Positions 37,958-44,803 of a DNA stretch of 50,044 nucleotides are shown here, piece after piece (the first letter of the stretch is position 1; each line of letters begins with the position of its first letter). The stretch comes from Alsobacter soli (GTDB lineage: Bacteria > Pseudomonadota > Alphaproteobacteria > Rhizobiales > Beijerinckiaceae). Made by a program: the position numbers and the translations under genes. Below the pieces are notes generated by a model, which was given only the letters and a program-made list of their open reading frames with translations, did not search any database and had not been told where the DNA came from. The stretch covers positions 1 to 50,044 of the forward strand of contig CAMCXA010000014.1 in the NCBI GenBank assembly GCA_945883115.1. Direction: 5' to 3'.

Positions 37958-38416
37958 TTACCAGCCCTCGACGCTTTTCGCATAATTTCGGATGATTGTC
38001 TTGAGTCCGGGCTCAAGAACATTCTCTTCGGCATCATCAACGTCAAAAACCTGTACCTTGCGGATATCCCGCTCTTTGAAGTCCTGCAATTGCGCCTCGA
38101 CCCGGAGCGGGAACACCCTCACCTTGGCAAGCTCCCAATGCCCCGTCCGACGCTTCCAGAAATCATAGACCCCGAGTGCTTCCTTGCCCACTTTGCCGAT
38201 CAGTCCACCTTCTTCCATTGCCTCGCGAGCCGCCGCTTCGTGCGGTTGAAGCCCCTTGATCGGATTCCCCTTCGGAATCGTCCAGCGCCCCGAGTCCCGA
38301 GTTGTGATCAGCACGATACGGACAGGCTTGCCGCGCTCAATCAGCACGGGCAACACCGCCACCTGCTCGAGCTGGCTTTCCGGAACGGAGGGTAATGTGT
38401 CGCTAAAACTACTCAT
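37958..38416 (-). CDS. Nudix hydrolase, DIPP-like
   Basis: A 152-residue pyrophosphohydrolase. The Nudix box covers GNPIKGLQPHEAAAREAMEE near residues 50-69. Its REAMEEGG core keeps the metal-binding glutamates, while the first Glu of the textbook box is Leu. This pattern (PKGNPIKGL-x-PHEAA) is common in the group related to diphosphoinositol- and dinucleotide-polyphosphate hydrolases. The N-terminal strand VAVLPVLIERG fits. It is probably a house-cleaning or signalling-nucleotide enzyme. It diverges from the response regulator across a 391-base spacer. Confidence 0.88.
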   Translation of the reverse strand: MSSFSDTLPSVPESQLEQVAVLPVLIERGKPVRIVLITTRDSGRWTIPKGNPIKGLQPHEAAAREAMEEGGLIGKVGKEALGVYDFWKRRTGHWELAKVRVFPLRVEAQLQDFKERDIRKVQVFDVDDAEENVLEPGLKTIIRNYAKSVEGW

Positions 38417-38497
38417 GATTGAAATCGACCGTAAGTGCGCGCATTCGTCAATAGTTTTTCGCTAGCAAGTCATTACGATAAAAATAGGGCAGGCCAT

Positions 38498-38692
38498 TGG
38501 AACAACCTTTGGACATTTCCAATTCGGATTGGAAATGCCGACAACGCGGCAATGTCCAACTCCAACGCTACCAATAAATCTCTCCAACGTTGGACAGGTT
38601 GTACCGGTTCCAGTGTTAAATACGACTGGAAATGTGTTCCAAATAAACTGGACACGTGACCAGTTGATTCGTTCGAAAACTGTTCCGTTCCA
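38498..38692. promoter_or_regulatory. Dense array of TGGA/TCCA half-sites upstream of the response regulator
   Basis: Within 195 bases there are six TGGA and seven TCCA tetramers. They build nested palindromes: CATTTCCAAT at 38514-38523 with ATTGGAAATG at 38528-38537; TTGGACATT at 38509-38517 with AATGTCCAA at 38551-38559; CCAACGTTGG at 38584-38593; and a 20-base near-palindrome around CACGTG at 38646-38665. No gene lies in the 391-base gap (38417-38807). This looks like a multi-site operator for the gene at 38808 or, less likely, for the Nudix gene. Confidence 0.6.
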
Positions 38693-38807
38693 ATTGTGCC
38701 CGTTTCCCTCGCATCACGCCCTTTTAGGCCACAGTTTTTTCCTACCCAATTCAAAAACTCGCAGTATAATTCCGCCGTAATCACGTCAAAAAGAATTCGG
38801 GTGGAAC

Positions 38808-39464
38808 ATGAAAAATCCGGGCAATACAGCGCTGCGCGTCCTGATTGCCGACGACCATCCTTTATTCAGATCTGCGATAAAATCAGCACTTTTCAGCCTA
38901 AATCACCAGACTGAATTCGTTGAAGCCGGATTTTTTGACGAATTATGTGAAAAACTTGATCAAGAACAAGACATCGACCTCATCCTCCTCGACCTCAAAA
39001 TCCCCGGCGTCATAGACTTTTCCGGCCTGTTCTACATTCGGACGAACTTCCCCCACTTTCCCGTGGTCATCATCTCGGGCAACGACGACCCGGCAACAAT
39101 CCGCACAGCCCTGAACATTGGCGCATCCGGTTTCATCCCCAAATCAGCCGACCCCGAAACCCTCGAAAAAGCACTAAAATCAGTCCTAGAAGGCCAATCC
39201 TGGGCCCCCGACAGCGCCCTTGTCTCGGAATTTTCTGGCAATAAAAATAGTGAAATAATCAATAAAATCAAAATGTTAACGCCCCAACAAATGCGCGTTT
39301 TGATGAAGCTCTCACAAGGCCTCCTCAACAAGCAAATCGCGTATGAACTCGGCGTCTCGGAGGCGACAATCAAGGCCCATGTCTCTGCCATTCTAAAAAA
39401 GCTGGATGTCGACAGCCGCACCCACGCCGCCATCCTGCTGACCAAGATTTCCGAGGTCGTTTAA
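38808..39464 (+). CDS. NarL/FixJ-type response regulator, orphan
   Basis: A 218-residue two-component regulator. The receiver domain (residues 9-125) has the acidic pair Asp15-Asp16 (IADDHP), the phospho-acceptor Asp62 (LILLDLKIPG), Ser90 (VIISGND) and Lys112 (GFIPKSA). The LuxR-type helix-turn-helix is at about 157-210 (LTPQQMRVLMKLSQGLLNKQ, then GVSEATIKAHVSAILKKL). No histidine kinase is encoded within the window, so its signal partner is unknown. The long upstream spacer is filled with TGGA/TCCA half-sites that it may bind itself. Base composition is more AT-rich than the genes to its left. Confidence 0.93.
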   Translation: MKNPGNTALRVLIADDHPLFRSAIKSALFSLNHQTEFVEAGFFDELCEKLDQEQDIDLILLDLKIPGVIDFSGLFYIRTNFPHFPVVIISGNDDPATIRTALNIGASGFIPKSADPETLEKALKSVLEGQSWAPDSALVSEFSGNKNSEIINKIKMLTPQQMRVLMKLSQGLLNKQIAYELGVSEATIKAHVSAILKKLDVDSRTHAAILLTKISEVV

Positions 39465-39585: not shown

Positions 39586-40677
39586 ATGCGAACCCTTCTT
39601 GATCTCGGCCAGTCCATCCTGAAGCGCATCGATCCCGAACGGGCACATACTCTCGCTATACAAGGACTTGAAATTACTTCTCCTTTTCTTACTCAATCCT
39701 CCAGTGATCCTTGTCTGAGCGTCAACGCCTTCGGACTGTCATTCCCCAATCCGCTCGGTCTAGCTGCGGGTTTCGACAAGAATGGCCAAGTGCCAGACGC
39801 TATGCTTCGCTTGGGGTTCGGCTTTGCCGAGGTCGGAACCGTCACACCAAAACCTCAGGTAGGAAACCCGAAGCCCCGCCTGTTCCGCCTTCCTGCCGAT
39901 GAGGCCGTCATCAACCGGTTCGGGTTCAACGGCGAGGGCGCCGCAAGCGTCTTAAAACGGCTTGAGGAACGGGCGCATCGCCAGGGTATTGTTGGCGTAA
40001 ACATTGGCGCCAACAAGGACTCCAAGGACAGAATCGCGGATTATGTCTCGGGAATCACGACTTTTGCCCCCGTTGCAAGCTATTTCGCCGTAAATGTATC
40101 GTCTCCGAACACACCCGGACTTCGCGATCTTCAATACGGCGCAGAGTTTGACAAACTGGTCGCACATGTTCTCGATGCACGTGATCAGCAAATAGCAAGA
40201 ACAGGTCGTAAGCCCGTTCTGTTCAAAATTTCGCCGGATTTAACGCTGGCAGAACTCGATGACATTATCCGGATAGCCCGCACCAGGCGCGTTGACGGCC
40301 TGATTGTCTCAAACACTACCGTTTCTCGCCCATCAACGCTTGAAAGCGGGAAGGTGACCCACGAAATAGGCGGCCTGTCCGGAAAACCATTATTTGATCA
40401 CTCGACTTGGATGTTGGCAGAAACATTTTTGCGCGTTGAAAAACAGTTTCCGCTGATTGGCGTCGGCGGAGTCAGTTCCGCGGAAACAGCAATTGCAAAG
40501 ATCGAAGCGGGAGCCACTCTGATTCAACTGTATTCCGCGTTGACATATACGGGTATTAATCTCGTCAATGAGATTAAAAGGGGTCTATCTGAGTATTTAT
40601 GGATTAATTCTCAACCATCTCATGAAATATTAATCGGTAGAACGGCGCATAAATGGCAAGGTCGGTTCGCCAAGTGA
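39586..40677 (+). CDS. pyrD: Dihydroorotate dehydrogenase, class 2 (quinone)
   Basis: A 363-residue membrane-associated flavoprotein that oxidises dihydroorotate to orotate in pyrimidine synthesis. The N-terminal amphipathic helix domain (LLDLGQSILKRIDPERAHTL) marks the quinone-linked class 2. Core motifs are NPLGLAAGFDKNG, FGFAEVGTVTPKPQ, the catalytic-Ser strand FAVNVSSPNTPGLRDLQ, and GVGGVSSAETAIAKI. TTGGAG lies seven bases before ATG 39586. It follows the response regulator by 121 bases and may have its own promoter. Its codon choice is noticeably less C-rich than that of the first 38 kb. Confidence 0.97.
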   Translation: MRTLLDLGQSILKRIDPERAHTLAIQGLEITSPFLTQSSSDPCLSVNAFGLSFPNPLGLAAGFDKNGQVPDAMLRLGFGFAEVGTVTPKPQVGNPKPRLFRLPADEAVINRFGFNGEGAASVLKRLEERAHRQGIVGVNIGANKDSKDRIADYVSGITTFAPVASYFAVNVSSPNTPGLRDLQYGAEFDKLVAHVLDARDQQIARTGRKPVLFKISPDLTLAELDDIIRIARTRRVDGLIVSNTTVSRPSTLESGKVTHEIGGLSGKPLFDHSTWMLAETFLRVEKQFPLIGVGGVSSAETAIAKIEAGATLIQLYSALTYTGINLVNEIKRGLSEYLWINSQPSHEILIGRTAHKWQGRFAK

Positions 40678-43448: not shown

Positions 43449-43501
43449 AATTTCAAATCAGTTTGAAGAATTTTATTTTGAAATATAAAATTATTTTTAT
43501 A

Positions 43502-44803
43502 CTATCTTCCAATACTAAAATATTTAAAACCTTGATCAAAAATTTCCTTAGGTCTGTATATGTTCCTTAGATCTACGATCACCGGCAGTTGCATTAGCTT
43601 TTTAATTCTATTCAGGTCAAGCGCTCGAAACTCATCCCACTCGGTCACGATCACCAACACTTCGGCACCGCGGACACATGAATACGCATCATCCGCTAGC
43701 TCGATATTTGGTAGTAATTTCTTCGCAGAAGGCATTGCCTGCGGATCATAAGCAAAAATACGAGCTCCCGCGCTCGATAGGCCGTTGATAATTTCCAGCG
43801 CAGGTGCTTCGCGCAGGTCATCTGTATTGGGCTTGAATGCAAGGCCTAATATAGCAATTTTCTTATTTTGGACGCTTCCTCCGCATGCTTGAATGACTCT
43901 TTCGGTCATTTTCACCTTTCGGGCGTCATTAACTGACATAACGGTTTCTATGATCCGCAGTGGAGCACCAGCATCTTGGGCAGTTTTTACAAGTGCCTGA
44001 GTATCCTTCGGAAAACACGAACCTCCAAAACCTGGGCCAGGATGGAGAAATTTCGATCCGATCCGATTGTCGAGGCCGATGCCGCGGGCTATTTGTTGGA
44101 CGTCGGCGTTTATTTTTTCACAGAGGTCTGCGATTTCGTTTATGAAAGTAATTTTTAAGGCGAGGAAAGCATTTGCTGCGTATTTGATCATCTCGGATGA
44201 GCGGCGATCAGTAAAGACGATCGGGGGCTCGTTCAGGGTGAGGGGGCGATAGATTTCGTACATCACGTCGCGGGCGCGTTGATCCAATGTGCCAATGACG
44301 ATGCGATCCGGGCGTTTGAAATCGCCGATTGCGGCGCCTTCCCGAAGAAATTCGGGGTTCGAGACAACGGCGAACTCTACTCCGGACCGAGCCGCGCGAA
44401 CGATCCGCTCGACTTCGTCACCCGTTCCGACGGGAACGGTCGATTTCGTCACAATAATGGCTTCCGGATGGGCAAAAGCGGCGATTTCCTTGGCTGCCGC
44501 GTAGACAAAAGATAAATCCGCATGCCCGTCGCCACGGCGCGAAGGTGTACCGACGGCGATGAAAATGGCCTCCGCGTCACGTGCTGCTTCCGCAAGGTCG
44601 GTGGAGAAACGAAGCCTGCCTTCTTTGACGTTTTTTGCGACTAGAAGGTCCAGACCCGGCTCATAAATCGGCATTTCGCCGCGCTCAAGCTCCGAAATCC
44701 GCAGCGGATCATGATCAACGCAGGTTACTCTATGTCCGAAATCGGCAAAACATGCGCCAGAGACGAGCCCGACATAGCCGGCGCCGACCATCGTGATTTT
44801 CAT
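43502..44803 (-). CDS. ugd: UDP-glucose 6-dehydrogenase
   Basis: A 433-residue enzyme that oxidises UDP-glucose to UDP-glucuronate for surface polysaccharides. The NAD motif MVGAGYVGLVSGA is at residues 5-17, Lys207 is in KYAANAFLALK, and the catalytic Cys263 is in GFGGSCFPKD. AGGAAAAG precedes ATG 44803; an upstream in-frame start at 45016 would overlap the asparaginase gene. Base composition changes sharply inside the gene: the 3' half is AT-rich and the 5' half GC-rich. It is divergent from the asparaginase gene and convergent with rhlE. Confidence 0.96.
   Translation of the reverse strand: MKITMVGAGYVGLVSGACFADFGHRVTCVDHDPLRISELERGEMPIYEPGLDLLVAKNVKEGRLRFSTDLAEAARDAEAIFIAVGTPSRRGDGHADLSFVYAAAKEIAAFAHPEAIIVTKSTVPVGTGDEVERIVRAARSGVEFAVVSNPEFLREGAAIGDFKRPDRIVIGTLDQRARDVMYEIYRPLTLNEPPIVFTDRRSSEMIKYAANAFLALKITFINEIADLCEKINADVQQIARGIGLDNRIGSKFLHPGPGFGGSCFPKDTQALVKTAQDAGAPLRIIETVMSVNDARKVKMTERVIQACGGSVQNKKIAILGLAFKPNTDDLREAPALEIINGLSSAGARIFAYDPQAMPSAKKLLPNIELADDAYSCVRGAEVLVIVTEWDEFRALDLNRIKKLMQLPVIVDLRNIYRPKEIFDQGFKYFSIGR

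Follow-up and report, generated by a model that had tools for sequence, protein, structure and literature searches.

A lineage-specific 12-bp palindrome with clustered TGGA/TCCA half-sites in an Alsobacter soli genome: candidate sites of a dimeric DNA-binding protein

The stretch of Alsobacter soli DNA analysed here (the window, 50,044 nucleotides) contains a dense cluster of the words TGGA and TCCA between the divergent genes of a NUDIX-domain protein and a response regulator. This raises the question of what the words are, and whether they belong to the regulator encoded next to them. The locus has the following features.

37958-38416, minus strand: gene of a NUDIX-domain protein, the divergent neighbour (PF00293, 9.2e-12)
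38492-38700: outermost pairing of the predicted fold, closing the cluster (GGCCATTGGAAC region with GTTCCAATTGTGCC region)
38498-38692, no strand assigned: TGGA/TCCA cluster with 13 half-sites
38514-38537, no strand assigned: inverted repeat of 24 bases, CATTTCCAATTCGGATTGGAAATG (TCCA-N8-TGGA)
38583-38594, no strand assigned: TCCAACGTTGGA, a perfect palindrome of 12 bp with 13 exact copies in the genome, this one included
38627-38641, no strand assigned: opposed half-sites TGGAAATGTGTTCCA
38646-38665, no strand assigned: near-palindrome of 20 bases with one mismatch, AACTGGACACGTGACCAGTT, round CACGTG
38808-39464, plus strand: response regulator whose HTH is of the LuxR/NarL type (among NCBIfam models ErdR is nearest, with a score under its cut-off)
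39586-40677, plus strand: dihydroorotate dehydrogenase gene, next after the regulator (PF01180)

TGGA occurs six times in the cluster (38498, 38510, 38530, 38591, 38627 and 38649) and TCCA seven times (38518, 38555, 38561, 38583, 38609, 38638 and 38689). A recount returned the numbers of the preliminary description, and both the stem-loop of 24 bases and the near-palindrome of 20 bases at CACGTG are present as it described them. The enrichment is far above chance. At the window's own rate, 1.25 TGGA/TCCA are expected per 195 bases (Poisson P ~9e-10 for 13). The 391-base intergenic region, dinucleotide-shuffled 2000 times, never reached 13 (maximum 8), and with the whole 50 kb shuffled 60 times, no 195 bases held more than 9. 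Frames of 74-103 amino acids spanning the cluster were taken as spurious. The palindrome TCCAACGTTGGA at 38583-38594 was absent from the preliminary description and proved to be the most informative part of the locus.

We analyzed the predicted folding of the cluster by comparison with shuffled sequences. The region 38490-38700 folded more stably than its dinucleotide shuffles on both strands (z -4.7 on the plus and -4.2 on the minus strand). For a 220-base segment, z values of -3.1 and -3.5 against dinucleotide shuffles shrank to -1.2 and -0.6 in a control in which the TGGA/TCCA words were kept in place and the remaining bases permuted. In three other clusters (C4, C11 and C1b), one strand or both still reached z values of -3 or lower in this word-keeping control, so some clusters contain real hairpins in addition to the half-site words. 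C4 (L115:2430-2600), located 3' of a class I (W/Y) tRNA synthetase gene, has word-fixed z values of -5.5 and -6.3 and includes a 43-base inverted repeat.

To place the cluster in its genome, we used a sample of 1,198,044 bases in 61 stretches (60 plus the window) at spaced positions along the contigs, the second and third batches being chosen after some clusters were known. Within the first 20 sampled stretches and the window (450,044 bases), the window cluster was the sole place with at least 8 TGGA/TCCA per 200 bp. In the whole sample it had the highest density of RYTGGA (11 in 200 bp), followed by places with 8, 7 and 6; two of these three (C1 and C4) were already known from pattern searches before the sampling.

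Across the 2.6-Mb genome, TCCAACGTTGGA occurs 13 times in 11 separate loci, compared to 0.14 copies expected from base composition and none of the reversed control. Forms with one mismatch were found at just five further places, three of them inside known clusters (reversed control, 2). Among 40 relatives, five carry one copy and 35 carry none; two of the 11 congeners included in this set have a single copy. Since the reversed control is also present in 8 of the 40 relatives, with one or two copies, the single copies of TCCAACGTTGGA there are at chance level. The preliminary description had proposed looking for similar sites elsewhere in the genome and for conservation in relatives. The former exist, as 13 palindromes and further clusters, and speak for function, whereas conservation is lacking, the congeners having no such cluster. 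Note that MurG of this genome is only 57-61% identical to that of the congeners. The genome is thus divergent from them, and absence of the motif there is no proof of recent origin. The motif is lineage-specific but not established as recent. A string search of the literature did not return the TCCAACGTTGGA 12-mer, only its 10-base core CCAACGTTGG in works unrelated by title; other wordings of the motif escape such a search.

The palindrome is surrounded by additional half-sites. The 13 copies are accompanied by 44 RYTGGA half-sites at distances of up to 150 bases, compared to 5.9 expected (35 without the window locus), and 10 of the 11 palindrome loci have at least one extra half-site within 150 bases on either side. 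Around the copies in the five relatives, 3 half-sites were found and 2.6 were expected. A pattern of two YTGGAMA within 30 bases gave 27 matches in the whole genome (reversed pattern, 8), where several matches can share one cluster and the window cluster alone gives 4. Nine of the 17 loci fetched from pattern matches have 7-10 TGGA/TCCA in 200 bp and eight have fewer than 7. TCCAACGTTGGA is present in 4 of the 10 dense clusters reached by the half-site pattern, the window included. Altogether, ~20 clusters or palindrome loci have been found so far, in a list that is non-exhaustive.

The half-site consensus from 165 sites in 17 clusters, RYTGGAMAT, differs from 2493 background TGGA sites. Among inverted spacings TCCA-N4-TGGA is favoured, with 17 cases in 20 clusters, although the sets used for alignment, consensus, spacing and folding were chosen partly by the palindrome, which biases the spacing counts. 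In the sample minus the window, the N4 spacing occurs 23 times, the average of 41 spacings being 11.2, and N32 is commoner at 26. Same-strand half-sites in 19 clusters showed weak 10.5-bp phasing (P 0.008, uncorrected, with 13 periods tested; P 0.015 in clusters marked non-coding), and no such phasing was seen in the window cluster alone.

The number of clusters alone is unexceptional. Among control words of the same RY-N4 form and similar frequency (n=108), TGCA formed 7 clusters in the sample (5 of them wholly coding), compared to 4 for TGGA; AATT and AAAT formed 4 each. The looser pattern TCCAA-N(0-6)-TTGGA is likewise unexceptional, with 29 matches here, 6-26 in seven congeners and up to 36 elsewhere in the order. 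YTGGACAC occurs 88 times on both strands here and 25-58 times in seven congeners, its reversed control reaching 74 in this genome. The commonest 12-bp palindrome in the sample is GCCTGATCAGGC with 5 copies (4 coding), compared to 4 for TCCAACGTTGGA. What is exceptional is the exact palindrome, the density in the window and the intergenic position.

Judged from open frames and coding scores, 11 of the 13 palindromes are intergenic, in a genome of which 14.7% of the sampled DNA is intergenic (P 4e-8). The two coding copies lie in murG (glycosyltransferase 28 protein) and near the end of dut (dUTPase). In this count, low-scoring frames that contain the C5 palindrome and one of the C11 pair were taken as spurious. 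The automatic coding mask assigned 84% of the C1 cluster as coding. When the C1, C5 and C11 cases are all counted as coding, 8 of 13 remain intergenic (P 1.4e-4). Neighbours of the clusters include release factor 3, a DEAD-box helicase, an AlgH-like protein, ribonuclease RNB, an AAA ATPase, an ABC transporter ATPase and an EngA-type GTPase, as well as, recognised by eye, peroxiredoxin, CysK, lactate dehydrogenase and a tRNA near C57. No common theme was seen among the flanking genes, and their orientations are mixed.

One further cluster, free of the palindrome, lies in the tail of the SRP54 (Ffh) gene. In alignments of MurG (10 congener rows) and Ffh (6 rows), the motif-rich stretch replaces a linker or tail of nearly equal length, with 3 extra codons in MurG. 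In both genes the motif was therefore gained mainly through substitutions and not by a 200-base block being inserted.

Two observations concern the placement of individual clusters. C59 (L191:1371-2312) extends from where the dUTPase gene ends to where a regulator gene of the Rrf2 family begins and is, among the clusters inspected, the only other one directly ahead of a regulator gene; a literature search for a CymR-like motif for this Rrf2 gene was without result. Seven clusters lie within ~2 kb of a contig end (C6 at both ends, C10, C13, C25, C30 and C67), perhaps caused by assembly breaks at nearby repeats.

The explanation we favour, at a probability of roughly 0.5, is that the ~20 clusters and palindrome loci are sites of a single putative dimeric DNA-binding protein of this lineage. 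In this view TCCAACGTTGGA would be the complete site, comprising two inverted TTGGA half-sites two bases apart. The satellite RYTGGAMAT half-sites, in both orientations, would let several dimers bind cooperatively, and binding at the window locus may block or modulate the promoter region shared by the divergent NUDIX and regulator genes. The palindrome recurs, is accompanied by satellite half-sites and lies largely in intergenic DNA, as expected for a multi-site operator. The preliminary description had proposed either an operator of the regulator encoded next or an RNA structure. Of the two, protein binding has the stronger support, from the two orientations, the TCCA-N4-TGGA preference and the weak phasing, whereas the assignment to the next-door regulator is not supported. 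The motif itself, its copy number and clustering, its lack in the relatives covered by the search and its positions, largely between genes but in part within them, are observed. From these observations we infer binding, dimerisation, cooperativity and any effect on transcription.

Several results count against this explanation. Two palindromes are coding, the phasing is weak and the N32 spacing is commoner than N4. The flanking genes lack a common theme, and this would be unusual for a regulon. No cognate protein was found in a search that covered the LacI family. Should the explanation hold, clusters over promoters, gene ends and coding linkers would illustrate the speed at which a binding-site layer appears or is replaced. 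The exact 12-mer is a ready bait, and a single pull-down could name the protein.

As the main alternative, the clusters may descend from short palindromic repeat elements in the style of REP or the Rickettsia palindromic element, inserted or expanded in the lineage and then diverged to palindromic words. We consider this possible but unlikely. It would be consistent with the length of the NUDIX-regulator gap, the distance between the first residues of both proteins (with values of reversed loci converted by hand). A divergent NUDIX neighbour is present at 7 of 10 congener orthologue loci and was not found at the other three. The gap is 391 bp here and 154-262 bp in the seven congener loci with both genes placed, suggesting additional DNA here of roughly the length of one cluster, in a comparison that is rough as the congener NUDIX proteins seemingly have a longer N-terminus (by eye). 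No large extra length is found in MurG or Ffh, where the motif stretch takes the place of existing sequence, which argues against insertion in these two genes.

Alignments between clusters are also divided. C13 and C25 have 169 bp in common at 77% identity, and C6, C30 and C57 adjoin a REP-like repeat, which we take to be a common alphaproteobacterial one. The folding of C4, C11 and C1b beyond the half-site words would likewise fit repeat elements. Taken together, however, the clusters lack a shared alignable sequence. Long alignments among the 17 were confined to C13/C25 and, through or beside the REP-like sequence, to C6, C30 and C57; C30 and C59 align weakly (70% over 82 bases), and all other cross-cluster pieces are at most 45 bases long. 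DNA searches returned no copy of the window cluster from its own genome (next best match 18 bases, E 0.04) or from 24 relatives (best E 0.09 over 25 bases), and we therefore rejected it as a mobile element. No matches to it were found in phages, and a plasmid search returned only a 22-base chance match inside zwf in five Pantoea records. The flanks of the 13 palindromes have no common sequence (by eye). A repeat family of this kind would have to spread words without any conserved body.

As to the aligned pieces themselves, the 169 bp shared by C13 (L108:1629-1797) and C25 (L111:4815-4983) include ACTGGTATTACCAGT, and one frame is alike in both (by eye); this may be an old duplicated or coding piece. 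The REP-like repeat sits near L109 2010-2090, L110 1680-1710 and L190 1800-1900, directly beside the three clusters. Integron attC sites were considered as a candidate, because GTTGGAC fits their consensus GTTRRRY, and were then set aside.

The scarcity of copies with a single mismatch bears on the nature of the putative protein. Ordinary operators usually show more intermediate forms, and 13 exact copies with only 5 one-mismatch copies therefore speak against an ordinary operator. This keeps alive the idea, to which we give only a small chance, that TCCAACGTTGGA and its satellites are recognised by a chromosome-organising or silencing protein specific to this lineage, almost intolerant of mismatches and comparable to those acting at parS, matS or SlmA sites. 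Such sites would have been drawn by point changes into gene borders and protein linkers, and dense clusters like that of the window would be nucleation centres. The genome is in 104 contigs, unplaced relative to origin and terminus.

A multi-site operator by which the regulator at 38808 controls itself appears similarly improbable. It would explain why the densest cluster found lies directly upstream of a NarL-type regulator gene, and the arrangement TGTCCAA-CG-TTGGACA would match the NarL layout. NarL sites consist of two 7-base elements, inverted and two bases apart (PMC9314961). TCCA-N4-TGGA is preferred in the clusters, but the invariant part of the 13 copies is the 12-mer, and the bases outside it, the flanks of a 7-2-7 site, vary. 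The same palindrome and half-sites also occur beside or inside unrelated genes.

The orthologues of the regulator provide a more direct comparison. An orthologue is present in 10 of 11 congeners (E 1e-40 or better). In all ten orthologues examined, 45-46 of 57 HTH residues are identical, including 14 of 16 in the segment expected to hold the recognition helix. The 435 bp upstream of these orthologues contain 1-4 TGGA/TCCA, with at most 4 in 195 bases, compared to 14 in 480 and 13 in 195 bases in this genome, and each congener genome has no or one copy of TCCAACGTTGGA. A similar DNA reading should keep the same site, so an HTH conserved without the sites disfavours an operator of the neighbouring gene. 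The link to the regulator encoded next, proposed in the preliminary description, is thus not supported, in view both of the dispersal of the palindrome among unrelated genes and of congeners that combine a near-identical HTH with absence of the cluster. In the two congener loci inspected (L127 and L131; by eye), the dihydroorotate dehydrogenase gene lies 3' of the regulator and points towards it; in the window it runs in the same direction as the regulator.

The regulator scored 218.4 bits against the ErdR model, far short of the cut-off of 390. We also considered a target of the CrbR/ErdR type. The CrbR target, the ACTU motif, is an imperfect inverted repeat of another sequence, for example TACTACCATCGTCGAAT (PMC5715377), and an alphaproteobacterial relative, RpuR, is said to require an imperfect direct repeat (PMC9100948). 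With a matrix built from six examples in the literature, the best match in the intergenic region 38417-38807 reached 4.6 bits, compared to 17.5-26.1 bits for the examples themselves, and a target of this type was rejected for this region. The best ACTU-like sequence of the window, TTATACTATCTTCCAAT at 43497-43513 (16 bits), lies between two gene ends, away from the regulator.

A function-free local build-up of short inverted words by mutation, for example by template switching, would account for words that occur in either orientation, both between genes and in stretches of MurG and Ffh under low constraint. We regard it as decidedly improbable, as local processes would not be expected to produce an identical 12-mer at 11 separate loci. 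A structured RNA or 5' leader, the other proposal of the preliminary description, is very improbable despite the low z values against dinucleotide shuffles, given that the fold of the window cluster is accounted for by its half-site words and does not exceed base and word composition (z -1.2), that both strands fold about equally, that z stays above -3 on both strands in 13 of 16 other clusters, and that no Rfam family reached its gathering score in the window.

The putative sites of a dimeric DNA-binding protein can be compared with several known systems. The CrbR/ErdR target ACTU is alike in being an inverted repeat and the target of the named family nearest to the regulator, and unlike in sequence. 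NarL/FixJ-type operators have short half-sites in inverted pairs two bases apart, and the gene adjacent to the cluster codes for a regulator of this family. However, the NarL consensus differs in sequence from the TCCAACGTTGGA motif, only the inner 12 bases of which are constant, and the sites described here are dispersed and absent from congeners. Operators of the LacI family, often with a CG centre (AACGTT core), resemble TCCAACGTTGGA as even palindromes with a central CG; the only LacI-family gene found in the genome has no such site nearby, and a binder of this family was rejected. REP/BIME and Rickettsia palindromic elements are dispersed, mostly intergenic palindromes peculiar to a lineage and sometimes located inside genes. 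The present sites share these properties, being dispersed, mostly intergenic, restricted to one lineage and in part genic, but differ in that the window cluster is without copies and MurG and Ffh contain no large insertion. The sites of parS, matS, SlmA and Noc, finally, are dispersed chromosome-organising sites. While the window motif differs from them by its satellite half-sites and its absence from congeners, it is alike in being a strict short palindrome with at least a dozen copies, some of them inside genes and others between them.
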